Shown here: positions 16,254 through 36,995 of the stretch, one piece after another
Layout of the letters: each line of letters opens with the position of its first letter
Position numbering within the stretch: position 1 is the first letter of the stretch
Assembly (NCBI GenBank): GCA_009780415.1
Contig: WRAC01000027.1
Coordinates: 1-36,995, forward strand
From: Defluviitaleaceae bacterium
GTDB lineage: Bacteria > Bacillota > Clostridia > Lachnospirales > WRAX01
Reading direction: 5' to 3'
DNA: 36,995 nt
Program-made: the position numbers and the translations under genes
Notes under the pieces: generated by a model
What the model saw: the letters and a program-made list of their open reading frames with translations, nothing else
Told to the model about the DNA's origin: nothing
The model's database searches: none

Positions 16254-16320
16254 GAGCCGGCCTTGTGTTTGCCAAATCCGCAAGCATTGATGGCATACAA
16301 TACCCGATATTGAAATCTAA

Positions 16321-18394: not shown

Positions 18395-18419
18395 ATAAAA
18401 TCTCCTTTAGAAAATTCAA

Positions 18420-18450
18420 GGGAGGGAAGCCCTTCAAATGCTCCCCTCCC
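18420..18450 (-). other. Intercistronic stem-loop before the ThuA gene
   Basis: GGGAGGG (18420-18426) pairs with CCCTCCC (18444-18450) around a 17-base loop. It lies between the epimerase stop and the ThuA start and has no T run. It probably influences transcript stability. Confidence 0.4.
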
Positions 18451-18457
18451 CCATTGT

Positions 18458-19279
18458 TTACTTATAAACCTTCTCGCGCAGTCCCTGCAAGTACGCCAGA
18501 GTTGTATCCGTTTCGTATTTATAATCGATTTCCGCGGCTCCGTTTGTTATTACCCATGGACATGCCGCGGATACTCCCTTATCATATCCTATTTCTTTAA
18601 GGATCTTAAACAGCTTTAAAAAGATATCATCCCTGCTCCCGACATTGGGCTGTGCGCCGCCATCGCCCTGGATATGCACGTCAAGGCAATACTCGGGGTA
18701 TTTCAAAATATCTTCCAGAGGCTGATCCAACTCAAGGAAATAGTTTAAGTCAACCATAGCCTTAATGGATCTGCGCCCGGTCATCTTAGCGAAGTCAATG
18801 GCTTCCAAATATCTGGGCCACAGCGTCGCCAGCTCGGCCTGGGGTTCAAGGGCAATCTCCATTCCGTACATCTCGGCAAAATCCGCCATAATGTTAGCGG
18901 TGCTGATGGCCTGATCCATGGCCTTAGCCCGGTCAAACCCGTCAGGGCAGTAAAAATGCCCGCCCCAGCAGCCAATGTATTTGCAACCCAACTCATTGAG
19001 CCTCTTAAACTCCCGCTCAAGCGCAAACAGAATCACTTCGCGGTTGTAATAAGGCCCGCACGCGCCCCGCCAGGTCATCCCCGGGCCCAACATGTGGCTT
19101 GTGCTCAGGCACGGGCGTCCGTCCGCCTTGTAAAGCGCCTTTTGGTCTTCCCATTCCTTGTCGCTGAACAGCGCGCTGGCATGGATCGCCGCGGGAACCT
19201 CGAAGTATTCCCAGCCCTTGCTGATCAGATTCAACGGCACCACATCAACAACTATGCCAAGCTTAAATTGCTTGCTCAT
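18458..19279 (-). CDS. Sugar phosphate isomerase/epimerase-like TIM-barrel protein
   Basis: 273 residues of the xylose-isomerase-like TIM-barrel family (AP endonuclease 2 fold). Likely metal ligands are Glu in EPQAE, Asp in MVDLNYF, and His and Asp in DVHIQGDGG. Typical strand-end motifs are GCKYIGCWGGHFYC and ANIMADFAEMYGMEIALEPQ. Such enzymes epimerise or isomerise sugars and inositols with a divalent metal. Together with ThuA and the ABC importer it suggests catabolism of an unusual or oxidised sugar (inference). ATG 19279 has AGGAGG upstream. Confidence 0.85.
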   Translation of the reverse strand: MSKQFKLGIVVDVVPLNLISKGWEYFEVPAAIHASALFSDKEWEDQKALYKADGRPCLSTSHMLGPGMTWRGACGPYYNREVILFALEREFKRLNELGCKYIGCWGGHFYCPDGFDRAKAMDQAISTANIMADFAEMYGMEIALEPQAELATLWPRYLEAIDFAKMTGRRSIKAMVDLNYFLELDQPLEDILKYPEYCLDVHIQGDGGAQPNVGSRDDIFLKLFKILKEIGYDKGVSAACPWVITNGAAEIDYKYETDTTLAYLQGLREKVYK

Positions 19280-19298
19280 AATACCTCCTGTTTTTTAT

Positions 19299-19331
19299 GC
19301 CTTGGGGGTGAATAAATCATACCCCCAAGGC
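19299..19331 (-). other. Intercistronic hairpin after the solute-binding protein gene
   Basis: GCCTTGGGGGT (19299-19309) and ACCCCCAAGGC (19321-19331) form a perfect 11-bp stem with an 11-base loop just 3' of the lipoprotein stop codon. On the minus strand it is followed by ATAAAAAAC, not a T run, so it is a stabiliser rather than a terminator. Such hairpins often keep binding-protein mRNA more abundant than that of its neighbours. Confidence 0.6.
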
Positions 19332-19339
19332 GTGTAATA

Positions 19340-20893: not shown

Positions 20894-20947
20894 TTTGGAA
20901 CCTCCTTTTTATTTAAAACCATAACACCGATATCCGGGATCATGGCT

Positions 20948-21889
20948 TTATTCCTTAACGGAGCCCAGTGATATGCCTTTAACAAAGTATCTCTGCATGA
21001 AGGGATAAATGGCCAGGATTGGCAGAATGGTTATAACGATGGCCGCCATTCTCAGGGTGAAGGGGTGGGAGCGCGATTCCGCCGTCAGCATCTGGGAAAC
21101 GGGCGAAACCATTGAGGTATCCTCAACGACCAGTTCCCGTAAAACAAGCATCAGCGGCCAGAGCCTGCGGCTTGATACATATAACATGGCGGAGAAATAA
21201 TTATTCCAATAATGCACCGCGTTAAATACAATCATGGTGGCTATCGCCGGTTTCAGCAGCGGTACGACTACCGAAAATAATATCCTTAAATCGTTTGCCC
21301 CGTCAATTTTGGCAGCTTCCTCCAAGGATTCCGACACTGTTATCCTTACGAAATTCTTCATCAGGATCAAATGAAATGCCGAAATGCAGCCGGGCAGTAT
21401 AAGCGCCCATAATGTATTATGAATGCCGAGGTTCCTGATAAGGATGAAGTTGGGTATCATGCCGCCGTTAAAAAACATTGTGAATAATATCATGCCCATA
21501 ACGAATTTACGGCCTTTAAGGTGCGGCTTGGAGAGGGGATAAGCTGAAATGGTAAGAAGGAATACGCTTAAAGCGGTTCCGCCGACGGTGATTATCAACG
21601 TCACTCTGTAGCCGGAACGGAACAGGTCATAACCCCAAATCTGCCTGTATGCCTGCAAGACGAATTCCCTGGGGAAAATACGCAGCGGATTTGCCAAATA
21701 TTCATTGTATGACATGAAGGATACAAAAAACACATACAAGAACGGTATAAGGCAGCATACGGCGAATATGCCCACAAAAATCACGCAAAAGCCTTCAAGC
21801 GCATAATCGCCTTTGCTCCTCAGGATGCGGGTACGCGGTTTCCTGGGGGTGTTTTTATGCATTGCCGGGGGTATGGAGATATCAGACAT
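20948..21889 (-). CDS. Carbohydrate ABC transporter permease (LplC/MalG-like)
   Basis: 313 residues, six hydrophobic helices after a polar N-terminus of about 30. The EAA loop SLEEAAKIDGANDLRILFSVVVPLLKPA docks the ATPase. The C-terminal FMQRYFVKGISLGSVKE is the usual MalG-type end. It pairs with the LplB-like permease, with which it overlaps by one base (TAATG). It forms one half of the membrane channel for the lipoprotein's substrate. Confidence 0.95.
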   Translation of the reverse strand: MSDISIPPAMHKNTPRKPRTRILRSKGDYALEGFCVIFVGIFAVCCLIPFLYVFFVSFMSYNEYLANPLRIFPREFVLQAYRQIWGYDLFRSGYRVTLIITVGGTALSVFLLTISAYPLSKPHLKGRKFVMGMILFTMFFNGGMIPNFILIRNLGIHNTLWALILPGCISAFHLILMKNFVRITVSESLEEAAKIDGANDLRILFSVVVPLLKPAIATMIVFNAVHYWNNYFSAMLYVSSRRLWPLMLVLRELVVEDTSMVSPVSQMLTAESRSHPFTLRMAAIVITILPILAIYPFMQRYFVKGISLGSVKE

Positions 21890-22824
21890 TAGAATATGCC
21901 CTCCTCTCCCAAAAGCTTCGCAATTTTATTCGCGGTCAGCAGCAGTATAAAACCTACGGAGGAACTGAACATCCCCACCGTCGCCGCAAAAGAGAACCGC
22001 CCGTTCACCAGGCCAAGCCTGTATGTATATGTTTCAAACACCTCCGAAACCTGCAGGTTGCTGTTGTTCTGAATGACGAAAATCTGCTCAAACCCGTTGT
22101 TCATGAGGTGTCCGATGGCAAGAAGCAGAAGTATTATTATCGTGGGTTTTATCCCGGGAAGGGTTACGTACCGTATCCTTTGCAAGCGTGACGCGCCGTC
22201 TATGGTTGCGGCTTCATACAGCTCCTGGTTGATTGACGTTATGGCGGCCAGGTATATAATAGTCTCCCAGCCCGCGTTTTTCCATACATGGGACACCAGC
22301 GCTATCCCGCGGAAATAACTTGAGCTGCCCAGAAAGAAGATAGGCTCGCCCCCGAAATTCCTGATTACCAGATTTATTATCCCCCATGATGGCGAAAGCA
22401 GGTTTACCAGTATACCGCCGATTACGACCCACGAAATAAAATACGGCAGATATACCATCGTTTGCGCGGCTCTTTTATACTTTAGGAACGGTATTTCATT
22501 TATGGCAAGGGACAGGATAATCGGTATGGGAAAGCAGATCACAAGACGTAAAAAGCTTAGCATCAGCGAATTCCCAAACACCCGGTAAAAATCCGCAAGC
22601 CCGAATAAATGCCTGAAGTTATCAAGCCCCACCCACGGGCTTCCCATAATTCCCCGCGAAAACCTAAAATCCTTAAACGCGATTACCAGCCCGTACATCG
22701 GGACATAATTAAAAACAATGAAATACACAACGCACGGAACTAATAACAAATAGAGGTAGCGGTTGGTCCAGAAATAAACAAAGGATCGATTCCTTGCGTC
22801 TTTTTTTTCGGTAACGGAATCCAC
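21889..22824 (-). CDS. Carbohydrate ABC transporter permease (LplB/MalF-like)
   Basis: 311 residues with six hydrophobic helices and the EAA loop LYEAATIDGASRLQRIRYVTLPGIKPT. The segment VYFIVFNYVPMYGLVIAFKDFRFSRGI in the first helix region is typical of LplB-type sugar permeases. First gene of the transporter operon. The start is GTG 22824, with GGGGGT six bases upstream. The likely promoter lies at 22860-22889, and the YesMN-type pair upstream is the probable activator. Confidence 0.95.
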   Translation of the reverse strand: MDSVTEKKDARNRSFVYFWTNRYLYLLLVPCVVYFIVFNYVPMYGLVIAFKDFRFSRGIMGSPWVGLDNFRHLFGLADFYRVFGNSLMLSFLRLVICFPIPIILSLAINEIPFLKYKRAAQTMVYLPYFISWVVIGGILVNLLSPSWGIINLVIRNFGGEPIFFLGSSSYFRGIALVSHVWKNAGWETIIYLAAITSINQELYEAATIDGASRLQRIRYVTLPGIKPTIIILLLLAIGHLMNNGFEQIFVIQNNSNLQVSEVFETYTYRLGLVNGRFSFAATVGMFSSSVGFILLLTANKIAKLLGEEGIF

Positions 22825-22859
22825 GCTGGCACCCCCTTATTCAATTATTGCTTATTGAT

Positions 22860-22889
22860 ATTATAGATTAGGTAAACAACCCATAACAA
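22860..22889 (-). promoter_or_regulatory. Candidate promoter of the sugar transporter operon
   Basis: On the minus strand TTGTTA (22889-22884), 18-base spacer, TATAAT (22865-22860), 36 bases before the GTG start. The -35 box is imperfect, as expected for an activator-dependent promoter. Confidence 0.5.
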
Positions 22890-23062
22890 TAAAGGATATA
22901 ATTCACAATTCCAATGATTTTTATAGAACGCTTGATTAGTTATAATTCAAAATGAAAACTTTGAACCGGCTTGTTTATAAGGGTGTTTTAGACAAAAATT
23001 TGCAATTGCCTCGAAATATGTTGTGCAAAAAGATGAAAAAGAGAATTGAAAAATTAAAAAGT

Positions 23063-24757
23063 TTAATGCGGTTGATATATTGTTATTTTTGTGCAAACAC
23101 CCTCCTTGCTGTCTATTATAACGTCGCCCAAGCCTTCCGAACACAGCTTTACCCTTTCAATTACGTTCCGCAGCCCATAACCGCTTTTGGAAACGGTTTT
23201 GTCCCCTTCGTTGATTTTATCAATTACCTCCTTGGGGATCCCGATACCGTCATCCTCCACGACAAGATAGTAAAATTCGGCATCGGCATAGCTGTAAATC
23301 GTGATGTTCAAATGATTGCCGCTCGCGCCCCTGCCGTGATATACCGAATTCTCTATAAGCGGTTGCAGTATAAGCTTCACTGTTTTCCGCCCCATCAATT
23401 CCGTATCAATATCTATATGCACATTGATCTCTTTGCCGTAACGTAATTTTTGCAAATATATGTATGCCTCAAGATGGTTCAGCTCCCTGTGAAGCGGCAC
23501 CTGGTTTTCATCCAGAACAAGCGAATATCTCAGGAATATGGCAAGGCTCTCCACAGCGTCGGCCAGCACATCCGGGTTGCCTTGATGCGACAGCCACTTA
23601 ATGGAAGAAAGTGAATTGAATAAAAAATGCGAGTTTATCTGCGCGCGCAGCGCCGACATCTCCGCAACGCGCTTTAGCTCGTTGATATCGTTGTTCTGCG
23701 CGATTAAGTCAAGAATACGTTTCCTCGTTTCGTCCAGTTCCCCGGCCAGCATCCCAAACTCGTCGCTGCCGTCAACACGCAGGTCCGTACTAAGCTCCCA
23801 GCTGCTTATCGCCGCGATTTTTTCCTGCAAGGTCTTTAGCCTGCTGCCAAAGCGCATGGACATAAGCGCCACAAAAACGAAGGAGGACGCAAGCACGCCG
23901 ATGATTACGGGAACAAGCCGTATCATCATCAGCCGGTATCCGCGGTTCAGGTTATCGGGAATCACCTCAATAACCACATCAAACCCGCTGTTTCCCGCGG
24001 TAATTGCTATCGCGTCATAAGAGATGTCAAGGCCTCCGCTTAAAATAAAAAGCTCGCCGCTTTGGCGGCTTGTGTGAAGCAGCGGCCCAAACAGCGTCCG
24101 GTCGCTCATTGACATTAAATTCCGCCCGTTTGTGACGCAGATGAGGTTCCCGCTTTTATCACTGCTGAAAAACCCGATTAACTCGGTTTCGTATACGCAC
24201 ATTTCAAGATAGTAATCCCATTCGGGATTGGTTTGATATACTTTCTTAAATATGGAAAAAACCTTTTCGTTTCGATTGTTTAAGTATGTGCCGGTTATAA
24301 GGAAATTGTCCCTGTACGCGGTGTTGCCCGGTATAAATTCGTTGAATACATCCCCAATATTACTGATAGCATTATACAAATCATCTATTTCGCCGAACGC
24401 GTTTCTGCGGTGGAGGCGGATATCCCTTATTCTTGCGGTATGCAGATCGGTAAACTCGGAGGTTATATCATTTAATATCACGCCCACTTGATGGTGGTTA
24501 CCGTTTTCCATCGGTTGGAGAAGCTCCTTGTTTGTTGCCAGAAGCCTGAGGTAGGACATAAAATACTCTATACGGTTATCAATGTTTATGGCTATTTGCC
24601 TGCCGTAAGCCTCCAGCACCTGGTTTTCCTGATTACGGTAGCTTTCCCTGAGGATTAAATGCAGCATTATCATAACCGTTGCTATGATAAATAATATAAT
24701 CATGGTGAATCCGGCGTTTAACTGCGTTCTGAACTTCAGATTATTAAGTAAACGCAT
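23063..24757 (-). CDS. Sensor histidine kinase, YesM type
   Basis: 564 residues from ATG 24757 (GGAGGG eight bases upstream). A first membrane helix lies at about 12-35 and an extracytoplasmic sensor region at 40-275. A second helix sits at about 280-305 and a HAMP-like linker at 305-360. The His_kinase domain has ALRAQINSHFLFNSLSSIKWL (phospho-acceptor His in SHFLFNSL, about 377) and the ATPase domain has LQPLIENSVYHG (N box), DDGIGIP and GYGLRNV. It probably senses an extracellular sugar signal and phosphorylates the AraC-type regulator whose gene it overlaps by 14 bases. Confidence 0.93.
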   Translation of the reverse strand: MRLLNNLKFRTQLNAGFTMIILFIIATVMIMLHLILRESYRNQENQVLEAYGRQIAINIDNRIEYFMSYLRLLATNKELLQPMENGNHHQVGVILNDITSEFTDLHTARIRDIRLHRRNAFGEIDDLYNAISNIGDVFNEFIPGNTAYRDNFLITGTYLNNRNEKVFSIFKKVYQTNPEWDYYLEMCVYETELIGFFSSDKSGNLICVTNGRNLMSMSDRTLFGPLLHTSRQSGELFILSGGLDISYDAIAITAGNSGFDVVIEVIPDNLNRGYRLMMIRLVPVIIGVLASSFVFVALMSMRFGSRLKTLQEKIAAISSWELSTDLRVDGSDEFGMLAGELDETRKRILDLIAQNNDINELKRVAEMSALRAQINSHFLFNSLSSIKWLSHQGNPDVLADAVESLAIFLRYSLVLDENQVPLHRELNHLEAYIYLQKLRYGKEINVHIDIDTELMGRKTVKLILQPLIENSVYHGRGASGNHLNITIYSYADAEFYYLVVEDDGIGIPKEVIDKINEGDKTVSKSGYGLRNVIERVKLCSEGLGDVIIDSKEGVCTKITIYQPH

Positions 24758-25982
24758 TAACCTGGCCCTCCGACATGCCATGCCTGAAATCGCTGGGAGT
24801 TAGGCCCGTTTCTTTCTTGAATATGGTGTGGAAATATGTCAGGCTGCCAAAGCCGCATTGATCTGCGATCTCATTGATCATCAGCGTACTGCCGCGAAGA
24901 AACTCCTCCGCCTTTTCAAGGCGCGTTTTCATCAGAAACCGGTTTACGCTTATTTTCTTCACGGACTTGAAAACAGTTCCCAGATAGTTGGGCGTAAAGT
25001 GCATTTGCTTGGCAATGGATTCCAGCGTAAGCTGGGATTGGTATTGCGCAAGTATGATTTCCTCAACCTCATCCGCTATTTGCTGCTTATTCTTCTTCTT
25101 TTCATCAGCCGGACCATGCCCGGGATATGGGCGCACACTGCGCCGCAGCAGCTCCGTATACAACTCATACGGGCTTCGCCGGCTGCCCTCCCCGCACACC
25201 ATTTTTATTTTCACAGGCTTAATGTTTCTTTCCTTAAAAAATTTCTGTAAAAGACCCTCCATCTTTTTGATTATATCTGGTTCACCCCGGACGCAAAAGA
25301 ACGTTATAAGTATTCCCGGCGTCATGCATACGCTGATTGACTGCGCGCAAAGCCTGGCGCAGTTTTTATTAAGGCTGGCGATGCTTTTGTCTATTGACTT
25401 TGTAAAATTTTTGTCGTAGAGGCTTAATAAAAGGCACAGCTTACCCGGCGACGGCTCACATAACCATTCGAGCCTCAAGTTGCGCGCATTCTCCCCGTCG
25501 GTTCGCATACCCATAAGCATACGGCTTATAAGGGCTTCGTGCGCAAGGCTTACGTTGATGCTGTAGCTTTTCTTAATCTCGCTGTACATCCGTTGTTCCA
25601 GGGCTTTTTCAGTTATTTCGTCAGCCGCTTTTTTTACAATCCGCAGAAGCTCCACTTCGTTGACGGGCTTCATTACATACGCTTGAATGTTTAAGTCTAT
25701 TGCCTGTTTGGCATATTCAAAATCATCATAGGAGCTGAGAAAGATGATTTTCGTTTCAGGGGCGTGCCTGCGTATTTTCCTTGATAATTCAATGCCGTTC
25801 ATAACCGGCATCTTTACGTCGGTAAGCACAATGTCGGGGCGCAGCTTCTCCACCAATGAAAACCCTTGCGAGCCATTGGAAGCCTCCCCGATAATCTGCA
25901 CGCCAACAAGCTTCCAGTCGATGCAGTTTACAAGCGAATTCCTTTCAAAAACCTCATCCTCTACTAATATCATCGTTGGCAT
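24744..25982 (-). CDS. AraC-type response regulator, YesN type
   Basis: 412 residues from ATG 25982, with GGGGGGA just upstream. The receiver domain (about 1-120) has VEDEVFERN, the phospho-acceptor Asp in DIVLTDVKMPVMNG and the switch Lys in VMKPVNEVE. A middle region of about 170 residues follows, then a C-terminal AraC DNA-binding domain (about 305-405) with LESIAKQMHFTPNYLGTVFK and IADQCGFGSLTYFHTIFKKETGLTPSDFR. It is the likely activator of the downstream transporter operon. Confidence 0.94.
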   Translation of the reverse strand: MPTMILVEDEVFERNSLVNCIDWKLVGVQIIGEASNGSQGFSLVEKLRPDIVLTDVKMPVMNGIELSRKIRRHAPETKIIFLSSYDDFEYAKQAIDLNIQAYVMKPVNEVELLRIVKKAADEITEKALEQRMYSEIKKSYSINVSLAHEALISRMLMGMRTDGENARNLRLEWLCEPSPGKLCLLLSLYDKNFTKSIDKSIASLNKNCARLCAQSISVCMTPGILITFFCVRGEPDIIKKMEGLLQKFFKERNIKPVKIKMVCGEGSRRSPYELYTELLRRSVRPYPGHGPADEKKKNKQQIADEVEEIILAQYQSQLTLESIAKQMHFTPNYLGTVFKSVKKISVNRFLMKTRLEKAEEFLRGSTLMINEIADQCGFGSLTYFHTIFKKETGLTPSDFRHGMSEGQVNAFT

Positions 25983-26024
25983 ATCTATCCCCCCGGCTGG
26001 ATTCATTTAAATATACCTATTATG

Positions 26025-26056: not shown

Positions 26057-27469
26057 TTAATACAATTTCATGTGATAATCCAGTATGGTGGGGTAGGTAA
26101 TACGGCTGTAAAGTATGCAAGCGCCTCCCCAACCGCGGCCTATATGCTGAATCATCACATCGCTGTCGGGGTGGCCGTATGTGAGCCCGTTGGCCGAATA
26201 GATTGCTGAAGATTTGGATATCGTAGGGCATTTGGGAATTTTTAGTCTCCTGTCGGTTTGGGATTCGGGCGCAAGCGCGTAATCGCCGCCGTGGTGTGAC
26301 GCTTGCAGCCAGCACCTGCTCCCGTTTTGGATATCATCAAGCACGGGCTTTTGTATTCCCGAATACGTGCAATCTCCCGCAAGCAATGCATAGGTTTTGC
26401 TGGGATGATGCGTTATATGCATGTACAGCCCATGGTGGTGCGGATGGCGGTTCATGCCGTTCTTAGCGATATCGTAAGCGTCCACCTTACCCAGCACAAC
26501 GTTCGCCGATACATGTGTGCCGCCTCCGGGAAAGCTGTGTGCAATGGTATGGATAGTTGCCGTGGTCTTAAAGTAGCTCTGAACTTTTAATTTTGACGGC
26601 GCGTCGCTGTCCGGCACAATCAGAATACCGTTTTTGAAAAGCTCCGCGCCGGAATCGATTTTATGCAGTGCATGGATGAGGTTCACATGGTCATTATGCC
26701 AATGGGATATTACAACGGTTAAGCCGGGACTTGTCCGCAATAATTGAATAATTGCATCGCGGTTTCTTATAGCGGCATCTCTCAGTCCGGCGGAAACACC
26801 GCCGGGAATACAGCCAAGATCGAAGAAGCCCATTAAAGCATCGCCGTCATCATATAAACCGGCGCATAAACCCGCTCCGACATATTGAATCCTTACGGCT
26901 CTGATGTTCTTGGCGAAATAACCCAAGCTTGCGTCTGCATCGGGAGAGGGCGCAACCCGGAACAGCTTGCTTATCAGTTCGCTCATACCGGGTTTAAAGG
27001 GCGACACTTTTACGTTTACCACATCGGAAACATCATCGTCGTCATGCAGGCTGCTTGCGTATCCGACATCCGCGCCAAAAGCTGGGTCGATTACGTCAAG
27101 CCTAAGGAACACGCCCGGGCTGAAGAAACCCATAGAAACGTCATACCGCCCGTAAGGGTGCCACTGAAACATAAACAACGGTTTTTCTCCGAAATAATCA
27201 AGCTTCGCCCTGTTAAATTCGTCGCTGTCCATGCCGTGACAGCGCATTACATCAAGCGCGTTTACGAGTTCCGGGCTTTCGTTCCCTGTGAGTCTATAGC
27301 TGTCGTCAACCAGCGGCTGTACAAATTCCCACGGCATTACTTCAAGCTCTATAGTGCCGATATGCCGAAACGACCCGCTTGCGCCAGGTATCTTGCCCGA
27401 AACATCCAATATCGTGCGCGTTGTATACGCCAAATAAGAGCCTTTCCCCAGTCCAAATGCTCCGCCCAT
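26057..27469 (-). CDS. Metallo-beta-lactamase-fold hydrolase with long unknown N-terminal region
   Basis: 470 residues. The C-terminal part (about 190-470) has the MBL motifs: VVISHWHNDHVN (HxHxDH, about 251-257), HITHHPSK, LLAGDCTYS (metal-bridging Asp) and ASHHGGDY (last His), so a two-metal hydrolase site looks complete. Residues 1-190 contain alternating hydrophobic strands and do not match a family I know. No signal peptide. ATG 27469 has GGAGGGG. It diverges from the large DUF6603-like operon with only 123 bases between, which suggests a shared role and shared control. The substrate is unknown; nuclease, lactonase and phosphodiesterase activities are all possible for this fold. Confidence 0.8.
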   Translation of the reverse strand: MGGAFGLGKGSYLAYTTRTILDVSGKIPGASGSFRHIGTIELEVMPWEFVQPLVDDSYRLTGNESPELVNALDVMRCHGMDSDEFNRAKLDYFGEKPLFMFQWHPYGRYDVSMGFFSPGVFLRLDVIDPAFGADVGYASSLHDDDDVSDVVNVKVSPFKPGMSELISKLFRVAPSPDADASLGYFAKNIRAVRIQYVGAGLCAGLYDDGDALMGFFDLGCIPGGVSAGLRDAAIRNRDAIIQLLRTSPGLTVVISHWHNDHVNLIHALHKIDSGAELFKNGILIVPDSDAPSKLKVQSYFKTTATIHTIAHSFPGGGTHVSANVVLGKVDAYDIAKNGMNRHPHHHGLYMHITHHPSKTYALLAGDCTYSGIQKPVLDDIQNGSRCWLQASHHGGDYALAPESQTDRRLKIPKCPTISKSSAIYSANGLTYGHPDSDVMIQHIGRGWGGACILYSRITYPTILDYHMKLY

Positions 27470-27592
27470 TATTTACCCCTCCAGTAAATTTACTATAGGT
27501 ACTATTATTTTCAACATAATTGTAGCATATTTTGTCAAGGTATGCTATAATTTTAGTAAATTTTGGTTTATTTAACATTTGGGGGCGTTTAT
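27470..27592. promoter_or_regulatory. Divergent control region between the MBL gene and the large operon
   Basis: Contains a perfect 12-bp palindrome AGTAAATTTACT (27483-27494) whose AGTAAATTT half recurs at 27555-27563. It also contains an inverted repeat TAGCATA (27523-27529), 11 bases, TATGCTA (27541-27547). The right arm of the latter runs into a TATAAT box (27546-27551) facing the large operon, 42 bases before its ATG. No good -35 box is visible at 16-18 bases, which fits regulated rather than constitutive expression. Confidence 0.5.
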
Positions 27593-30500
27593 ATGAATAT
27601 AAACAAGATTGCGTCCAATATCCGCGCGTCTGTTTCCGGCGGGCACTGGACACTGTGTGACAAGAACACCTTCGGCAACGAAACGGGATATATCTCCGCG
27701 TACCTGAACGATGTTTTCGGCGAGGACACGCTGGATATGCGTGACGCGGTGTTCACGGACATTCACACGACGCCGGAAGGTAAAGCCGTAGCGGTTTCCG
27801 GCTTTGCCGAATGCCGCCAGAAGATAACATTTACGCAGAAAAATGAGGACGGGGAAACGGCGATTTTCGTCGCCCATCGTCTTGAAACGGAAATACCGGA
27901 GATAAGCCTTCCCGTTGCCGATTTGTATCAGGAATACGGCTTTACATCCGGTAAAGAGGGCATTTCCTCAAAGGGCGGCGGTTCTGTGCAAATCGGCGGC
28001 TGTCTGCTCGATTTATCCGGCGCGTATAACGGATATAGGAAAAACTGGGAGTTCAGCGCGGCAACTCGGGAGGGGGCGGATTTTTCACTCCTTGGCGTCA
28101 TGGGGGCAATGCTCAAACCGCTGGGGATAAATTTCAATCTGTCTTTGCTGCCGGATATCCGCGTTACCGACTTCACATTCATTTACGCCACGGGCTCGGC
28201 GCTGCTTTCGCCCATAGCGCATCTCGAGATGCGGACAAACGTCAGCCTGTCCGTATGTGAAAAACTGGGGCTGCGCAATTTGGGCGTCACCATCGGGCAT
28301 ACCTGCGGTAAAAAGGATGAATCAGCCTTCTCTTTCTCGCTGACGGGTGACTTGGTTATCGGAAACTCAAAATCCGCCGCCGTGATGAAGTATGAACGCG
28401 GCACGTTTAATTTTATTCTTGATACGGAGGATTTCACAGCGCCAAACATCGGTGATGTGGCGTCGGTTTTCGGGCTGGACGCGGCAAGCTGGCTTCCCCG
28501 GGAGTTTTCGCAGATTACGCTAAACCGCCTGGAAGCCGCCGTAGCCGGGGATTTCTCCGCCATTCCGTATTTTAACATCAGCTTTTCAACCGGAGAGCCT
28601 TGGAAATTCTTCGATATAGACAGCTTACAGCTGCTGAATATCGGTGTGTGCGTTACCGTAGAAAAATCCGGCGGAAACACCGGTGTGTTCGCGTTAATTG
28701 ACGGTACGGTACGGCTGTTCGGCCAGGATATTATTCTGTACGCAAGCGTTTCCCCGGAGCGGGAGGGATGGGAGTTCGGGGCTCGGCTGCCTGAAGATAA
28801 CGATTTCCACATAAACGCCTTCGTATCGGAGTTTGCCCGCGTGCTGTTCGGTGCGGAGGGCTTTGCTTTACCGATACCGGATATCCTTATCTCGAACGCA
28901 ATGCTCATGTTCAGGCTGTCGGATAAATCATTCACCGCCAAGGCAACGGTAAAGGTTGGTGAACCCGGCGGCGGCATACTGCGGAAATTCTTCGGCGGCG
29001 CGCAGGCTTCGTTTGAGGTTTCGTCTTCCGTGAAGGATGGCAAACGGGAATATAAAGTAATGTTTGACGGGAGCCTTGTGATTTCGGAACAGCATTTCGC
29101 GGTTAGGTACGAATACGACAGATCCGGCGGCACGAACATGCTAAGAGCCGGCTGGGAAAATAAGGCGCCGATTAGCCCGCTGTCCCTTGCGGCTGTGATC
29201 GGCGCAATGGGCGGCTCCGTACCCGCCGTACTGAACGATTTCGACCTAAGCGTGGACAAGGCGTCCATGGAATATGACTTTAGTAACAGTATTTTAAACA
29301 TAACCGTCGAAAACAAGAAATACGGCGGGGTCAAGCTGAGCGTATGGAACGACGGTATCATTGACTGCGCCGTCATTATCACGTGCAATGACATCGCCCT
29401 CTCCGGCCTGCCCGTAGTGGGAACGAAGCTGAAACTGCTGGATTCATTAAAAATCCAGCAGCTATCCTTTGCCGTTACCACCCGTAAAACAAAGTACGAA
29501 GGCTGGGATATTCCGCCGGGCGCGGCTATTATGGGCAATATATCCGGCGAGAAGGTTTACGCGCAGCTTACCGAGTTTAGACCGAAGGAAAATGAATTTG
29601 CACAGGATTCGGACGGCATATCCATGGTCAAGTGGTTTACAATCGAGAAGAGCCTTTCGGTGTTTAGCTTCCACCGTTTCGGTATCGGCTACGATAACGG
29701 GCGGCTTAGCTTTTTGCTGGATGCATCCTTGCAAACATCTCCCATTTCCATGAATTTGATGGGGCTGGGAGTGGGGATGAACATTAACAACCCGCGGGAT
29801 ATCGCATTCCGGCTGGACGGGCTGGGTGTCGGTTATAAGTCGGAGGCCGTTTCCATTTCCGGTGAGTTCGCAAATATGTCCACGAAGGAAAAGGAAACAT
29901 ACGCCGGTTCGCTGATGATTAAGATCAAGGATTTCTCGTTGTTCGCGTTCGGGCTGTACGAGGCTACTGAGGAATACTCCGCGTTGATGGCGTACGCGCT
30001 GCTGGGGCTGCCGATTGGCGGGCCGCCCATCTTCTTTGTGACGGGACTGGCGGCGGGGTTCGGATACAATGAGAAGCTGCCCGCCCCGCCAATCGAGAAA
30101 GTGGCGGAATTCCCGCTGGTAGCCGCCGCAACCGGGAAACTGAACGAGAAAGGTATGGTCGCGGCGCTGTTAAAAGCTATTCAAATGTCGAAAGGGCAAT
30201 ATTTCCTTGCGGCGGGCGTTCGTTTTACATCGTTCAAGCTTATCAACTCATTCGCCCTGCTGCTGGTGTCATTGGGGAACGAGCCGGAGTACAGCCTGCT
30301 GGGCGTTTCAACACTGACCGTACCGTTCGATAAGACCGAGTCGCCTATTGCCCGCGCGGAGCTTCTGGTGAAGGCTTCGTACAGGCCGTCCGCCGGGTTG
30401 TTTGCTATCCAGGCGCAGCTGTCCTCCGATTCCTACATCCTTTCTAAGGAATGTACGCTGACCGGAGGGTTCGCCTTCTTCACCTGGTTCTCCGGCAACC

Positions 30501-31702
30501 ACAAGGGCGATTTTGTACTGACCCTCGGCGGCTACAGCGATACATATACAAAACCTCCCCACTACCCCGCCGTACCCCGCGTCGGCTTCCGCTGGAGGGT
30601 CAGCAATAACATAACCATCTCCGGCGAGGCCTACTTCGCACTTACACCGAGGATGCTGATGGCGGGCGGCAAGCTTGAGGCCGTTTACCAAAGCGGCAAT
30701 CTCAAAGCCTGGTTCATAGCCAAGGCGTACTTTGAGATAAGGTGGAAGCCCTTGTGGTACGAGGCCGGTATCAGCGTGCGGCTGGGCGCGTCTTACAGGG
30801 TTTCGATATTCGGCTTTAAAAAGACGTTCTCACTGGAGATCGGGGCCTCACTCAGGGTATGGGGGCCGGAGTTCTCCGGGAAGGTGAGCATAAGCTGGTT
30901 CATTATTTCATTCACAATCTACTTCGGCGCAAACGCGAATAAGCCCGCCGAAACAATCGACTGGGATACGTTCTGTTCCTCCTTTCTGCCGCAGGATAAT
31001 ACAGCCAACGCGGGATATACGGCGTGTACCGTCAATGTGTCGTCCGGGCAGATTGGGATTATCAAGCTGGATGATAACGATACGCCCGCCGTACGCCCGG
31101 ATGAGCTGGTTATTACCGTCAGTTCATGTGTTCCGGCGGCAGAGATCACCGTCAACGGCTGTGGTCCGTTGACCGGAAGCGCGGCGGGAATATTACCCAT
31201 GGGCGCATCCGCTATGAAGTCGGATATTACCGTCCTATTTATCAGCAATAGAATTGATATTGTAACCGCCGAATACGAGGAGATACTCGATAATGTCCCC
31301 GCCGCGCTCTGGGGTAATGATCCAAGTTCCGGCAATACGTTGGTAAAGGGCGCGCTGACCGGTGTACGCGTGAGCCCCAAAAGAACTGAGGCCGACAAGA
31401 TATTCCCGGAGGCAAGCGACATTAATATCGAAAAGCTGGGTGAATTGGCGAAAATAGAACGTTCGTATAATTGGGCGTCCGCTCCCGTAATTAATAACCC
31501 ATACAAGCAGGAGAAGGCACTTGACCGCTTCTGCATGACTGCAATGGATGCTAAGATTATAAAAAACAGGGACAGTCTGTTGGAAAGCTGGCACGGCGAG
31601 GGTTTGCTCTCCGGCTTGCCCGGTGCGGTTGATATAACCGATCTAGCCAAGCATGGCAAAAACCTGTTTGACGCGGATATCTTCTTGGGGGTGGTAGTAT
31701 GA
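27593..31702 (+). CDS. Giant cytosolic protein with DUF6603-like region and internal repeats
   Basis: 1369 residues from ATG 27593 (GGGGGCG upstream). No signal peptide or membrane helix. Residues about 150-630 contain repeating units, each opening with a short helix ending in FG or MG, then an LP turn and long alternating strands (VFGLDAASWLP, VLFGAEGFALPIPD, AVIGAMGGSVPAVLND). Residues about 640-1130 resemble DUF6603: the block GGPPIFFVTGLAAGFGYNEK with PPIEKVAEFPLV, the later VGFRWRVSNNITISGEAYFALTPRMLMAGG, and a strand-rich SFTIYFGAN. The last 230 residues are a separate beta-rich region with VPAALWGNDP. The family has no known function. The stop overlaps the next ATG (ATGA), and three more large genes follow, so it is probably the scaffold of a multi-protein assembly (inference). 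Confidence 0.85.
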   Translation: MNINKIASNIRASVSGGHWTLCDKNTFGNETGYISAYLNDVFGEDTLDMRDAVFTDIHTTPEGKAVAVSGFAECRQKITFTQKNEDGETAIFVAHRLETEIPEISLPVADLYQEYGFTSGKEGISSKGGGSVQIGGCLLDLSGAYNGYRKNWEFSAATREGADFSLLGVMGAMLKPLGINFNLSLLPDIRVTDFTFIYATGSALLSPIAHLEMRTNVSLSVCEKLGLRNLGVTIGHTCGKKDESAFSFSLTGDLVIGNSKSAAVMKYERGTFNFILDTEDFTAPNIGDVASVFGLDAASWLPREFSQITLNRLEAAVAGDFSAIPYFNISFSTGEPWKFFDIDSLQLLNIGVCVTVEKSGGNTGVFALIDGTVRLFGQDIILYASVSPEREGWEFGARLPEDNDFHINAFVSEFARVLFGAEGFALPIPDILISNAMLMFRLSDKSFTAKATVKVGEPGGGILRKFFGGAQASFEVSSSVKDGKREYKVMFDGSLVISEQHFAVRYEYDRSGGTNMLRAGWENKAPISPLSLAAVIGAMGGSVPAVLNDFDLSVDKASMEYDFSNSILNITVENKKYGGVKLSVWNDGIIDCAVIITCNDIALSGLPVVGTKLKLLDSLKIQQLSFAVTTRKTKYEGWDIPPGAAIMGNISGEKVYAQLTEFRPKENEFAQDSDGISMVKWFTIEKSLSVFSFHRFGIGYDNGRLSFLLDASLQTSPISMNLMGLGVGMNINNPRDIAFRLDGLGVGYKSEAVSISGEFANMSTKEKETYAGSLMIKIKDFSLFAFGLYEATEEYSALMAYALLGLPIGGPPIFFVTGLAAGFGYNEKLPAPPIEKVAEFPLVAAATGKLNEKGMVAALLKAIQMSKGQYFLAAGVRFTSFKLINSFALLLVSLGNEPEYSLLGVSTLTVPFDKTESPIARAELLVKASYRPSAGLFAIQAQLSSDSYILSKECTLTGGFAFFTWFSGNHKGDFVLTLGGYSDTYTKPPHYPAVPRVGFRWRVSNNITISGEAYFALTPRMLMAGGKLEAVYQSGNLKAWFIAKAYFEIRWKPLWYEAGISVRLGASYRVSIFGFKKTFSLEIGASLRVWGPEFSGKVSISWFIISFTIYFGANANKPAETIDWDTFCSSFLPQDNTANAGYTACTVNVSSGQIGIIKLDDNDTPAVRPDELVITVSSCVPAAEITVNGCGPLTGSAAGILPMGASAMKSDITVLFISNRIDIVTAEYEEILDNVPAALWGNDPSSGNTLVKGALTGVRVSPKRTEADKIFPEASDINIEKLGELAKIERSYNWASAPVINNPYKQEKALDRFCMTAMDAKIIKNRDSLLESWHGEGLLSGLPGAVDITDLAKHGKNLFDADIFLGVVV

Positions 31703-33021
31703 GCAGTTCCGAAAATTTCCGGCTTATGCCGGTGTTTAAACCAAGCCTTACCGAAGGCGAGTATACGATCATCGCCAATCAAAAGGTGACGGATCCCGTA
31801 TCCCATGAGTTCCCCGAAGCCCGAGCCACAGTGTACGTAGGGACAAAGCATTTCTCGATACCGTCGGATGAAGTGCACAGCGTTTACCCGCCGCCGGATC
31901 AGGCCGGGGATTACGCCGATGTTCTGCCGCACATCGTGTTCAACAAGGCTACGCTGCCATGGGAACGTAAAATTAAGAACGACGTGCCGTGGATAGTCCT
32001 GCTCTGCCTTAACAAGGAGGAGATAGCCGATGTAAAGGACATAACAGCCGCTGAACTGTGCGATCCCACGAAAAGGGAGGGTAACGTTTTCTTTCCCTTG
32101 AACTCGCTGCCGCCCCTTGCGGGGGAAAGCGCGGACAGCGTGGTTTCGGTCATCGACATACCCAGGCGGGTATATAAGGACTTGTTCCCCATGCCGGAGG
32201 AAGCGCAATTCCTGGCCCATGTTAAAACCGTGAGCGCCGTGGACAAGGACGACAACCACATAACTCACGACGGGCAGTATTCCACTGTTTTCGCCAACCG
32301 TTTCGTACCCACCGGAGCCGAGACGCAATTAAACGAAATCCATGCCGTATCAATTGAGGGTTACACCGACTATTTTCCCGGCATGGCAAAGGAATCCGTT
32401 TTAGACGCATACGAAATGCTAAGGTTCATTTCACTGTACCGCTGGAATGCGCCCTCTCAGGGCGGCGCGCCTGTGGGGTTCAGGGATGTGTTCGGTGAAA
32501 TGGATGTCGCGCCGCTGGCTTTGGAGCCGTCAAAAACGGCGGGTGATCCGGTGAAGCATATGCTGGGGCGCGGCGAACTCCCGCGTATACACAAGACACG
32601 CAGCGGTGAGGTTACGGCGTCCGTTTACCGGGGGCCGCTGGTGCCGCATAATTCGGCGAAGGAAATAGATCCCGGTAATATCCCGCCTTACGAATCCCCC
32701 ACCGCCGACCATAAAGTCATATATGACTGCGAAAAAGGTGTGTTTAACACGGCTTACGCCGCCGCATGGCAGATAGGCCGCCTTGCCATGCTGAACGATA
32801 AAGCGCTATCCCATATACTGCTCCGGTGGCGGCAAGGCAACAGGAAAGCCCACGCCGGCAAGCGTTTAAACGAAATGCTGCGGAACAGGCTGTCGGAGTT
32901 TACGGAGCAGGAGGGCTTTTTGGAATATATTGCCCGCGAGCTTGCCGGGAAGATCATCGAAGACGGGTGCATTGCGCCGCTTGCGTCAGACGGGAGGGAT
33001 ATCGATGCAAAGCTGGATTAA
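31699..33021 (+). CDS. 440-residue protein of the DUF6603 operon, function unknown
   Basis: Soluble, no signal peptide. The N-terminal half is strand-rich: FKPSLTEGEYTIIANQKV, then ATVYVGTKHFSIPSDEVHSVYPP, with VPWIVLLCLNKEE in the middle. A STVFANRF...IHAVSIEGYTDYF segment looks like a conserved core. The C-terminal part is helical with NTAYAAAWQIGRLAMLNDKA followed by LRWRQGNRKAHAGKR, a basic helix. I recognise the pattern as belonging to uncharacterised proteins associated with DUF6603-type genes, but cannot name a family. It is coupled by ATGA overlap to the giant gene and overlaps the next start by 17 bases. Confidence 0.75.
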   Translation: MSSSENFRLMPVFKPSLTEGEYTIIANQKVTDPVSHEFPEARATVYVGTKHFSIPSDEVHSVYPPPDQAGDYADVLPHIVFNKATLPWERKIKNDVPWIVLLCLNKEEIADVKDITAAELCDPTKREGNVFFPLNSLPPLAGESADSVVSVIDIPRRVYKDLFPMPEEAQFLAHVKTVSAVDKDDNHITHDGQYSTVFANRFVPTGAETQLNEIHAVSIEGYTDYFPGMAKESVLDAYEMLRFISLYRWNAPSQGGAPVGFRDVFGEMDVAPLALEPSKTAGDPVKHMLGRGELPRIHKTRSGEVTASVYRGPLVPHNSAKEIDPGNIPPYESPTADHKVIYDCEKGVFNTAYAAAWQIGRLAMLNDKALSHILLRWRQGNRKAHAGKRLNEMLRNRLSEFTEQEGFLEYIARELAGKIIEDGCIAPLASDGRDIDAKLD

Positions 33022-33880
33022 TTTGCCGGATAACGATACATACGTATTTGACAGCGAAATATGGAATCCGAACCTGCTGCCGCTGACCATGCAGGATTGG
33101 CTGGGCGAGCTGGCTCTGCTAAGGAGTTTGCCATTCTGTTATCTTGTGCCGGACGAACGGCTGCTGCCCCCGGAATCCATGCGTTTCTTCTTTTTGGACA
33201 GGCCGTGGATCGACGCGATGGTAAACGGCGCGGTCAGCGTTGGGCGTGTATCTGAGAACGACGCGCGGACGGACGGGCATTTGGCGGCCGGCAATCTTGA
33301 TGTGGCTTTCTCAGCGGTAAGGGGCTACCGACCGTCCCGTATGCATAAGAACCATTTGAAAAAACTGCCGGAAAGCCGGACATTCCGCAATACGGTATTA
33401 TCAATAACCGGGTTTTTATTGCGTTCAAGAATTGTACGGTTTATGAACGGGCTGGAAGTGCAGGGCTTTGCCAAGGATGCCTCCGGTGAGGATGTGCCGG
33501 CGGATCTCATGCGTATGGAGCCTCTGAGCAACGACATCCTCCTTTGCCTGTTTGACGGTGAAGTCTCCCGTGTACGGATAAAAGAGCCGGTCGAGGGGAT
33601 GCGGTTCGGCGGCAAACGGCATGAAAACGGGGAGCGGTATATTCTGGCGAGAGATATAAAAGAGCCTAAGGTGGGCGAAGTCTTGGGCGAGATACCGCTG
33701 AAGGTTTCGGGCAGCGGGCGGCTGGATATCGCGGACTTAAAAGAAAAGCTGTCGGCAAAGCTCATGGATGCGGATTTAAACTCCGCTCATATGGCTTTCG
33801 AGCTGTTGGCGGCGCCCGAGATATTCGAGGTCACAAGAAAGGGAGGGACGGCTTTTGAACGCTCTATTCGTACCGATTGA
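33005..33880 (+). CDS. 291-residue protein of the DUF6603 operon, function unknown
   Basis: ATG 33005 with GGAGGGAT six bases upstream inside the end of the previous gene. A longer in-frame start at 32930 is unlikely because it lacks such a site. The stretch LPFCYLVPDERLLPPESMRF followed by FFLDRPWIDAMVNGAVSVGR is striking and probably the conserved core. The central part has FLLRSRIVRFMNGLEVQGFAKD and a C-terminal strand-rich region with LCLFDGEVSRVRIKEPVEGM. No signal peptide or membrane segment. Overlaps the next gene by 26 bases. No named family recognised. Confidence 0.75.
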   Translation: MQSWINLPDNDTYVFDSEIWNPNLLPLTMQDWLGELALLRSLPFCYLVPDERLLPPESMRFFFLDRPWIDAMVNGAVSVGRVSENDARTDGHLAAGNLDVAFSAVRGYRPSRMHKNHLKKLPESRTFRNTVLSITGFLLRSRIVRFMNGLEVQGFAKDASGEDVPADLMRMEPLSNDILLCLFDGEVSRVRIKEPVEGMRFGGKRHENGERYILARDIKEPKVGEVLGEIPLKVSGSGRLDIADLKEKLSAKLMDADLNSAHMAFELLAAPEIFEVTRKGGTAFERSIRTD

Positions 33881-36800
33881 CGTAGAGGCGCATGTAACAA
33901 ACCGCGAAAACCCCGACCACAAGAGGATAGCGGAACTGACCCCCAATTTCGCGGAGCTGTATTACGAAACGCTGGGCGGGAAGGTGGAGCGGCAGCCGTT
34001 TGACATCGGGCGGGTGCTTGAGGCCGGCGTCCATCTGCATTTTATTCTCCCAGACGCCCTGACGCAGGGCGACGAGGAGAACGGGTACAGGCATATCCCC
34101 AACCGCTGGCTTGTGACGCGTATCGTGTCGGGCAAGACATTCCGGGTTAAATGTTTTGTTGTGGAAAGCGATTACCTTGGCTCATCAAGCAAGGAGGGTG
34201 TGCCGGTGCCGCTTTTCGGCGGGGAAGAAGTGTACGAAGACCCCCCATACGGCTACCTGGGACGGCAATATCCCCTTGGGAGCCAGCCCAAACCCGGACG
34301 GGTGTACGGCGGCTTAACCGCGCTGGGCTACGGGGATCCGGCATTCTCAGCTTATTACCCCGGTTGCCGTTCGGTGCTGGGGTTATATGACGACCTTGCA
34401 GATGCCCCGTCCGAATGCGCGCTTACCTATACGGTCGCCGGGTGGTACGAGGGCGGCGCGGTTGTCCCTTTACGCAACGCCACGGAGGATACTTTCGCCG
34501 GGATACTGGACGCGCTGGCTTGGGACGCGGGGAAAAGCAAGGTAAAGAACGAAACGATATGCCACGGTATTGTAACGGGCATAGAATGGAAGGGTAAGGC
34601 TTCCCCATATCCCTCCGGGGAGCCGAAGGGGTTGGTGGAGGTCGCTGTCGGCAACACATCGGATGAAGCGCTGGCTGCGCTGATTGCCGCGAAGGCAGGC
34701 GGCTCCGGCGCGGAAGCGTTGGAACGCTTCCTGTTGGCGCTGCAATATGACCTGTTAAACGAGTTCACCGACGTGGATAAAGGCCCGGCGTACGTGCAGG
34801 ACTCTATACACCGCAACGCGTTCACGGAAGCCGACGGCGGTCTGCGCTGGATTATCCGCCGTACCGACAAGCCCGGGGACGTACAACTGCCCAAAGGTAT
34901 AGGAGTGCCGCTGGATATGCTGAACCGGAAACAGCGGGTTCTGGACGCTTTGCAAGCGGAGCGGCTCTTCTGGCTGGGGAAGATGCACACGACCTGGTAC
35001 GGTTACATGCTATGCCACGAGGAGGGCAGGCCCGGCAAGGAAGCTCCCTCCATTGAGGCGTTTACGGACGAGATTACAAGACTGGCAAGCATAGCAGACG
35101 ATATCACGGATGAATCCGAGATTTTAAATGGTGAAATCTCGTTCATATCAGATGAAATAAACAAGAAAATCGATAAGGATAAGGCCAAGGGCTTTTATAT
35201 TTTAGAAGCCGAACCGCGCGAGCGGTTCTACGCGCCGAACGACCCTGTGGTGCTGCTGGCCGGAGACGGCGTAGGCAGAGGGTTTCTCTTCGGCGAGGAT
35301 TCCCGGTACGATCCGGTGAACGGGCGCCTGAAATGCCGGGATACCTTAGTACACGGCATATCCGGGAAAACTGGCGGCAAAGAAGTTATTATTACCATAA
35401 ATGAGATATTGGGCTTTTTCGCCGATTTGCCGGATAAGGCTTCACAATTCCTATGGCTCAGCGGGCTTCTGTGTGAAACGGCCTGCCTCGCGCCGTCATT
35501 ATCCGTTGAAATAGCCAACACCTATAATCTCGCGTATGTAAAACCCGTAGGGGACATCCCCTGCCCCATAGCCGTAAATCCCTGGTCACAGCCATGGAAC
35601 ACGCTGTTTTTCTCATGGGAGATACAATACCGCGCAACCCGCACAGACAGCGGCGATGACAACACCATGAAAAATTGGGCGCAGGGTGAGATTGATTACT
35701 CATACAAGGGAGGATTGCCAACCGCGTTCCATAGGTACGGGGGCAACTCCGTCCTGACGCCTCACTCGGCAAAGCTGCTGTCAGACCGGCTAACCAAATA
35801 CGCCGGAACCGTAACCGACCCGGAAATGAAGAAAACATTGGACATGCTGGCGGGTATTATAAAAGACTTAAAGGTACTCTCACAGTCCTTCGGCGGTCAA
35901 CGGGAGTGGCTTCTGTCCCGCCGCCACGCCATGGAGCTGCCCCGGCTTCCTTTCAAGGGTGATAGCTTAACGGAGCTGGTTAACCGATACCTAAGCATCC
36001 CCGCTGGCCCGGATTGCCTGACGCCCGCGCCGGATTTCCCGTTCTTCCCGGTACGGGGCGGGTTCGTTAACATAGGCGAAATGGTTTCAGTGAATACGTT
36101 CGGCGGGCGGCAGCTTTTAGGTACTGCGGTCAACAATGTCTATGTGTCCGAAATGCTGAGGGCGGATATACCCGGGAACATAGCCCAATTACCGCCGCGT
36201 TTTACGCAGTTCGCACGGTTGGGATTTTCGTGGCTGTCCGTCATGAACGAAACTGTTGAATCCAACGCCGACCCCGACACCACGCCCGTTTGCGGCTTTA
36301 TCATCCCCAACATATTGAACAAGGGGCTGATGGTTTATGATATGGACGGCTCTTTCAAGGGTACGCTGAAGCTCGCCTATGAAGGCGAGAAGACCGTAGC
36401 CCGCTGGGTGAGCGCGCCCAGCCGGAAACTCCGCGTTTTTGAGGACGAAGAATTTTCAAACCGTCATTTGCGTGATTTTATCGCGGGTATCCTTTCGCAC
36501 AATAAGGAGGGCGGCGCATTTCAAGCTTTTCTGGCGGCGTTGGATCAGCGGCTTGATTCATCCATCAACGAAAGCGACGTATATGGGGAGCCGCTCTCAG
36601 CCATTTGGGGCAGAACATTGGTTCTGGCCCGCGCCAGCTTGAATTTGGAACTGATGACCCCGCCTGAATACAGTATGTCCTATAATGACCTAGGGGCGAA
36701 CCATACAGGCGGCTTCGAGAAAATACGCTTCAATACGCTGATTGGGGACGCGGCGCGCGTTAGGGATTCCCTCGCCGGGTATTTCGCGCAGAAAACAGGG

Positions 36801-36995
36801 ACGGCGGAGGATTACAAGACATTCTGTCCCGCCGCCAGTTCCGTACCCACGAAATACAGCTCCGCTTATGTAGATTATAAAAAACAAAACACCCTTTCCG
36901 CAAGTGACAAGGAAGCATCTGTATTCACCATGCTGATGGAACCGGGGGCAAGTTTTGTGATGCGCACGGGGATTCTTCCGGTAAAAACGGCCCTG
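33855..36995 (+). CDS. Very large protein of the DUF6603 operon, 3' end outside the window
   Basis: Open from TTG 33855 (GGGAGGGAC six bases upstream) to the window edge with no stop, 1047 codons so far. I read the frame through line by line. The N-terminus MNALFVPIDVEAHVTNREN is followed by a strand-rich region. A short coiled-coil-like segment lies at about 400-440 (ITRLASIADDITDESEILN). Then come conserved-looking blocks RFYAPNDPVVLLAGDG, QPWNTLFFSWEIQYR, LSQSFGGQREWLL, QLPPRFTQFARLGF, TTPVCGFIIPNILNKGLMVY and GRTLVLARASLNLEL, with MRTGILPVKTAL at the window edge. No signal peptide or membrane helix. Function unknown; likely a second large structural subunit beside the giant DUF6603 protein. 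Confidence 0.8.
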   Translation, partial: MNALFVPIDVEAHVTNRENPDHKRIAELTPNFAELYYETLGGKVERQPFDIGRVLEAGVHLHFILPDALTQGDEENGYRHIPNRWLVTRIVSGKTFRVKCFVVESDYLGSSSKEGVPVPLFGGEEVYEDPPYGYLGRQYPLGSQPKPGRVYGGLTALGYGDPAFSAYYPGCRSVLGLYDDLADAPSECALTYTVAGWYEGGAVVPLRNATEDTFAGILDALAWDAGKSKVKNETICHGIVTGIEWKGKASPYPSGEPKGLVEVAVGNTSDEALAALIAAKAGGSGAEALERFLLALQYDLLNEFTDVDKGPAYVQDSIHRNAFTEADGGLRWIIRRTDKPGDVQLPKGIGVPLDMLNRKQRVLDALQAERLFWLGKMHTTWYGYMLCHEEGRPGKEAPSIEAFTDEITRLASIADDITDESEILNGEISFISDEINKKIDKDKAKGFYILEAEPRERFYAPNDPVVLLAGDGVGRGFLFGEDSRYDPVNGRLKCRDTLVHGISGKTGGKEVIITINEILGFFADLPDKASQFLWLSGLLCETACLAPSLSVEIANTYNLAYVKPVGDIPCPIAVNPWSQPWNTLFFSWEIQYRATRTDSGDDNTMKNWAQGEIDYSYKGGLPTAFHRYGGNSVLTPHSAKLLSDRLTKYAGTVTDPEMKKTLDMLAGIIKDLKVLSQSFGGQREWLLSRRHAMELPRLPFKGDSLTELVNRYLSIPAGPDCLTPAPDFPFFPVRGGFVNIGEMVSVNTFGGRQLLGTAVNNVYVSEMLRADIPGNIAQLPPRFTQFARLGFSWLSVMNETVESNADPDTTPVCGFIIPNILNKGLMVYDMDGSFKGTLKLAYEGEKTVARWVSAPSRKLRVFEDEEFSNRHLRDFIAGILSHNKEGGAFQAFLAALDQRLDSSINESDVYGEPLSAIWGRTLVLARASLNLELMTPPEYSMSYNDLGANHTGGFEKIRFNTLIGDAARVRDSLAGYFAQKTGTAEDYKTFCPAASSVPTKYSSAYVDYKKQNTLSASDKEASVFTMLMEPGASFVMRTGILPVKTAL

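Follow-up and report, generated by a model that had tools for sequence, protein, structure and literature searches.

A DUF6603 gene module with exchangeable enzyme genes and variable binding-type ends: a candidate carrier particle of environmental bacteria

We analysed a 36,995-bp stretch of DNA from a Defluviitaleaceae bacterium (GenBank assembly GCA_009780415.1, contig WRAC01000027.1), hereafter the window, which is one complete contig of a 2.5-Mb, 85-contig assembly. At its right end lie four coupled genes, P2 to P5, and, diverging from them, P1, a gene for a metallo-beta-lactamase (MBL)-fold hydrolase; P2 carries the domain DUF6603. Across bacteria these four large families, three of which are unnamed, recur as one conserved unit with a fixed core, an exchangeable enzyme and, probably, an exchangeable binding tip. 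We propose, at somewhat less than an even chance, that P2–P5 together with an enzyme encoded upstream and a protein encoded downstream (P6) form a modular particle that carries interchangeable enzymes as its payload. Three computed results carry this proposal: the fixed linkage of the genes, the joint exchange of the enzyme gene and the P2 N-terminus, and the variable binding-type ends of P6. If true, it would describe a new type of device by which environmental bacteria deliver proteins or display enzymes, and it is testable, as complete loci exist in species that can be cultured and are non-pathogenic. Even if delivery is wrong, DUF6603, of which no mention was found in the literature searched, is tied to definite partners, and the N-terminus of the DUF6603 protein is predicted to bind the upstream enzyme.

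Linkage and spread of the P2–P5 module

Loci were gathered by DUF6603 alone. An alignment scan with one genome per species gave 80 loci, to which plasmid matches, one further genome (G508) and the window were added (87 loci); P3, P4 and P5 were then sought with profiles built from the window proteins. P3 and P4 adjoined the DUF6603 gene in 85 of the 87 loci and P5 in 82. The loci without P3-P4 or P5 were mostly cut by a contig or flank edge, and one (L037) was a genuine exception, without P3-P4. The gene order was P2-P3-P4-P5 in 37 loci, P2-P3P4-P5 in 30 and a rotated P5...P2-P3P4 in 9, besides other orders; P3 and P4 formed a single fused protein in about 40 loci, and the intergenic gaps within the module had medians of 5, 2 and 0.5 bases. 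The arrangement is beyond chance, being repeated, in the same order, by loci from about nine phyla. Whole-genome searches of 398 genomes of the phylum with the P3 and P5 profiles found only the same two genomes as DUF6603, at one site each; scattered, unlinked homologues were thus not seen. These results supported P2–P5 as one obligate unit, and the coupling in fixed order claimed by the original prediction, which was made from the window sequence alone, held in nearly all loci. Its count of four coupled partners was right as to linkage and incomplete otherwise: P3-P4 is often one protein, and the upstream enzyme and the downstream binding protein had been overlooked. The coupled set is therefore better given as P2, P3-P4 and P5, usually with these two additional proteins.

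DUF6603 was rare and its distribution patchy: it turned up in one of the 146 relatives and in two of the 398 phylum genomes searched (the window's own genome is counted in both). The carriers were environmental bacteria, among them soil and marine ones. In a tree of 86 DUF6603 cores the phyla were intermixed, with 24 phylum changes against a minimum of 7, and its starred branches alone required at least six changes each for Bacteroidota and Pseudomonadota; near-identical versions occurred in Vibrio and in Bacteroidota. This mixing fits horizontal transfer, contamination of metagenome-assembled genomes and paralogy being other possible sources. A phage origin is unsupported, because no P2 relative was found in the viral contigs or phages searched. 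One copy, in Marinomonas rhodophyticola (L084), had P2, P3 and P5 split into several frames, and its relative L086 (99% identical core) was intact; the broken frames may be either a decaying copy or sequencing errors.

The upstream enzyme gene and the P2 N-terminus

The gene directly before P2 shared its strand in 72 of 82 loci; the median gap was 41.5 bp. A domain scan of 64 of these upstream genes identified Lipase_3 (16 genes), Exo_endo_phos (8), Lactamase_B (5), an AvrRpt2-like peptidase (2), HNH (1) and Hcp (1), lipase thus being the commonest enzyme. A four-member cluster resembled the TET-associated glycosyltransferase (TAGT) family below the cut-off, and one protein resembled a metallopeptidase effector. 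No signal peptide was found in the lipases by a simple hydrophobicity test. Enzymes of the HNH, papain-like and lipase-like kinds are known among polymorphic toxins (PMC3482391). In genome G508 (L008), a clostripain-type peptidase lay within the upstream run, and Hint-domain and DUF6765 (zinc phospholipase C-like) proteins were inserted between P4 and P5 (L008:14582-17415).

Two Okeania loci (L012 and L065) gave the clearest example of an exchange at this end of the module. At the DNA level they were 91% identical in P5, 90% in P3-P4 and 93% in the final two thirds of P2, but no alignment was obtained for the upstream gene and the initial ~556 codons of P2; the upstream gene encodes a lipase in L012 and an unrelated 505-aa protein in L065. 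In a test of 18 dereplicated loci, the normalised similarity score of P2 N-termini was 0.042 within the same payload class versus 0.015 between different classes (permutation p 0.002), an effect beyond core similarity. Alike N-termini were shared by two MBL loci, one of Bacteroidota and one of Paenibacillus, and by two TAGT-like loci, one of Streptomyces and one of Pseudomonas. Because it changes with the upstream enzyme in Okeania and tracks the payload class, the P2 N-terminus is most likely the payload-specific part of the protein.

These results bear on an explanation that we consider improbable, namely that P2–P5 alone are functional, that the enzymes next to them hitch-hike in a variable island without being related to the module, and that shared insertion sites give rise to the pattern. 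Some upstream genes are indeed plainly unrelated housekeeping genes (DHFR and LytTR), and P1 of the window is divergent, differing from the MBL proteins of other loci. On the other hand, loci of different phyla repeatedly hold the same classes of enzyme in this slot, on the same strand, and the N-terminus of P2 itself varies with the class of enzyme.

The original prediction had asked whether the MBL gene is always adjacent to the module; a constant MBL partner was not supported. P1-like proteins were present in none of the other loci (and P1 in 1 of 96 relatives, namely the window's own genome), and MBL proteins unlike P1 filled the upstream slot in only six loci. With upstream families that vary in this way, the MBL protein was ruled out as a constant partner; it is one of several payload types, because the slot also holds lipases, EEP enzymes, proteases and others. 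P1, a putative member of the system, would be the window's payload only by analogy with the other loci. The MBL protein of L037 resembled LmuA and RTasMBL of PADLOC; regarding anti-phage defence, no PADLOC profile matched P1–P5.

Several further neighbours were observed. Six loci (L064, L068, L059, L056, L070 and L074) encode two or three short, glycine-rich collagen-like proteins upstream, ahead of the lipase gene. An Hcp (type VI tube) gene lies directly 5' of the gene for a 3629-aa DUF6603 protein in Hydrogenophaga (L062:2034-2519). About 5–10 kb upstream of a Streptomyces copy are an annotated CATRA conflict protein and a CHAT-domain protein (L005:4074-9130). Near the module of Mesorhizobium (L097:2685-5330 and 14836-16533) are what look, by eye, like a LodA-like oxidase and a tandem of three tail-collar (Mdp-like) genes.

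Binding-type ends, predicted structures and the carrier proposal

A P6-type cluster was present in 67 loci, mostly directly after P5. Its members carried Kelch propeller (11 members), phage tail Collar (8), Laminin_G_3 (5) and S74 endosialidase chaperone (4) domains, and also PLAT and Fib_succ_major, domains that are typical of tail-fibre tips and lectins. In the Okeania pair described above, the C-terminal third of P6 dropped to about 23% identity. The binding tip is probably swapped as well as the enzyme. Other recurrent downstream genes encoded a family of Sec-type secreted proteins (C4), after the module in 12 loci, and a short acyl-AMP ligase start (C5) in ten loci. No recurrent small partner gene was found among the neighbour clusters.

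The predicted structure of P2 (residues 170–1369, pLDDT 77) was nearly all beta, with repeats of four to five long strands and a helix, followed by one large sheet; the P2 strands alternate in hydrophobicity (z 4.2). The best Foldseek neighbours were ApoB100, LptD and FimD (E 1e-7, TM about 0.1). We read P2 as a large amphipathic sheet, a barrel being unproven. The fused P3-P4 protein was modelled as a compact single unit (pLDDT 87, pTM 0.81) containing small Ig-like parts that are weakly S-layer-like (Z about 5); it had no Foldseek or VIA match with E below 1e-3 (best Z 5.4), which is no proof of a new fold. Profile searches against the PDB returned nothing for P2 and P4, and only noise or coiled coils for P3 and P5.

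From these data we infer particle assembly, docking, export, targeting and action of the enzyme on another organism, as follows. P2, P3-P4 and P5 would be the fixed carrier, made in the cytoplasm without Sec signals, to which P2 would contribute a very large amphipathic beta sheet, either facing lipid or making up a shell. The N-terminal region of P2 would dock the upstream-encoded enzyme, be it a lipase, an EEP nuclease/phosphatase, an MBL hydrolase, a papain-like protease, a glycosyltransferase-like protein or another. P6, through its beta-propeller, laminin-G, tail-collar or S74-chaperone end, would recognise the target surface. The particle would leave the producer by lysis or another non-Sec route and bring the enzyme to a target cell.

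The same structures and neighbours could be explained within the producer itself, as an intracellular scaffold associated with lipids or membranes, in which the P2 sheet would cover a membrane or lipid body on which the enzymes encoded next to it (lipase, phosphatase, glycosyltransferase) would act. We consider this unlikely, although it accounts for the lipid-wrapping beta belt of ApoB100 being the best fold neighbour of P2, for lipases being the commonest adjacent enzyme, for the absence of export signals, and for some loci running into a FAAL-KS-AT-KR-ACP-TE synthase and an Asp/Asn hydroxylase. In three loci with a giant P2 (L094, Hahella; L095, Vibrio; L096, Flavobacterium), a 2.3-kaa gene follows P6; the gene of Flavobacterium scans as FAAL-KS-AT-KR-ACP-thioesterase, with an Asp/Asn beta-hydroxylase next to it. 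However, the propeller, laminin-G, collar and S74 ends of P6 and the collagen-like neighbours point outside the cell, nuclease and protease payloads do not suit lipid metabolism, and the exchange of payload and tip is like that of conflict systems.

A location outside the cell would also suit a surface or matrix assembly, such as an adhesion structure or coat, that shows enzymes on the producer's own surface with no delivery. This is marginally less probable than the lipid scaffold. Collagen-like glycine-rich, laminin-G and propeller proteins adjoin the module, the Sec-type secreted family follows it, and the P3-P4 model has its small Ig-like, weakly S-layer-like parts. P2–P5 and the lipases are nevertheless devoid of Sec signals, no anchor domain was seen, and the joint replacement of an enzyme and the P2 N-terminus is unexpected for a coat.

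The carrier proposal itself has to be weighed against several observations. The P6 cluster was obtained by single linkage and is heterogeneous (mean column identity of the alignment 8%), so that its members may not all be orthologous, and no P6 relative was found in the window's genome in a search that had no positive control. No immunity, export or lysis gene was consistently linked across the loci. A gene resembling polyketide synthases, or only the start of one, comes after the module in about a dozen loci of Bacteroidota and Gammaproteobacteria, and the delivery model does not explain these neighbours. The fold matches of P2 are weak, as porins in VIA reached Z about 15 at a root mean square deviation of about 12 A. 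The DHFR and LytTR genes count here as well. As for the window, P1 takes a position comparable to that of the variable enzyme gene elsewhere, yet on the opposite strand; it is the only gene at the enzyme slot, with no same-strand upstream enzyme, and when it was compared with the MBL payload cluster C7, only the metal-site stretch aligned (26 columns).

In its logic, the module resembles toxin carriers, most of all the umbrella toxin particles of Streptomyces (UmbA-C), whose UmbA lectins include beta-propellers and laminin_G_3, and which show two-tiered diversity (PMC13274773). Both combine a variable enzyme or toxin part with variable binding ends. Unlike UmbA, which has a trypsin-like domain, P1–P5 have none by Pfam; the present core, which occurs in about nine phyla, consists of a giant beta protein, P3-P4 and P5.

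Extracellular contractile injection systems (PMC8213781) share the modular delivery logic, and the tail-collar and S74 domains of P6 recall them. The Hcp gene adjoining P2 in Hydrogenophaga is a further likeness, as is a baseplate-V locus about 9 kb away in Paenibacillus. On a Paenibacillus polymyxa plasmid (L002:1-7000), a GH-E nuclease, baseplate-V proteins and a DUF4280 gene are located about 8–14 kb upstream of the DUF6603 gene. However, no sheath, tube, baseplate or spike family was found in P2–P5 with Pfam and PHROG. The sheath family PF04984 exceeded its cut-off in 7 of the 15 carrier genomes and had no match in 5 of the 15, including the window's own, which rules out dependence on a contractile sheath.

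Tc toxins are very large proteins without recognised Sec signals. P2–P5 are likewise very large and without Sec signals, and the logic of enzyme plus carrier is shared, the enzyme part of TcA/TcB/TcC toxins being held by the carrier (PMC7861908); in contrast, P2–P5 contain no Tc domain by Pfam, and the enzyme here is a separate upstream gene. PF12255 (TcB/TcC-type) had no match in the 15 carrier genomes, and the controls gave none either. The polymorphic toxin systems cited above are similar in combining a conserved carrier with swappable enzymes of the HNH, papain-like and lipase-like kinds. They differ in that the classical toxin is fused to the carrier C-terminus, whereas here a separate upstream gene co-varies with the carrier N-terminus, and no adjacent immunity gene was seen. 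ApoB and other large lipid transfer proteins share the large curved amphipathic beta sheet and supplied the top Foldseek match of the P2 model, but at that TM score and with no sequence similarity membership is not claimed. Slightly more tentatively than the carrier itself, we suggest that the module represents a hitherto undescribed class of modular particles that carry enzymes or toxins, based on DUF6603 giant beta proteins, derived from neither phage tails, Tc toxins nor umbrella toxins, spread over about nine phyla and exchanging parts at the payload end and the binding tip.

The module and its surroundings in the window

The features of the module are listed in Table 1. P2 has 1369 aa in total (27593-31702). 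As the original prediction had described, the four plus-strand genes overlap by 4 (P2/P3), 17 (P3/P4) and 26 bases (P4/P5), the MBL gene diverges across a gap of 123 bases, and its product has a complete metal site; the open reading frames and the motif in the table match these descriptions.

Table 1. Positions of the P1–P5 genes and of the parts of P2 in the window
Feature	Position	Strand	Remarks
P1, divergent MBL-fold hydrolase, 470 aa	26057..27469	-	motif HWHNDH, residues 256-261
P2 N-terminal region, aa 1-683	27593..29641	+	strand-rich repeats; ATG start 27593
P2 core, aa 684-1135	29642..30997	+	DUF6603, PF20248; predicted large curved amphipathic beta sheet
P2 C-terminal region up to stop codon	30998..31702	+	end of open reading frame
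P3, 440 aa, unnamed family	31699..33021	+	N-terminal half of fused ~730-aa protein elsewhere
P4, 291 aa, unnamed family	33005..33880	+	C-terminal half of fused protein elsewhere
P5, at least 1047 aa, unnamed family	33855..36995	+	TTG start 33855; open at contig end

PF20248 matched the P2 core with 460 bits (E 1e-137; profile positions 1-453 of 502), far over the curated cut-off of 27 bits. P1, P3, P4 and P5 had no match in Pfam, NCBIfam, PADLOC or PHROG, and no signal peptide or transmembrane stretch was found in P1–P5 (highest 19-residue Kyte-Doolittle mean 1.69). The hydropathy and profile scans thus agreed with the claim that the four plus-strand genes have no signal peptide, membrane helix or enzyme motif, DUF6603 being the only thing recognised. 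That the operon continues, as also predicted, was partly borne out: more genes follow in other loci, but the window already ends with the contig and P5 is nearly complete. Because P5 fills its family model from the first to the last position (1-1082 of 1082), only its very end may be missing.

The G+C content of the module was 53–56% (third codon position, GC3, 0.63–0.66), compared with 47% (GC3 0.43–0.63) in the remaining contig, which is compatible with recent acquisition and no proof of it. Elsewhere in the window, a WG-repeat protein (PF14903, E 6e-104; 6159-7850) adjoins an unmatched 571-aa protein. An ordinary sugar-uptake block (17741-26006), comprising ThuA, an isomerase-like protein, a solute-binding protein, permeases, a sensor kinase and an AraC-type response regulator, terminates just before P1.
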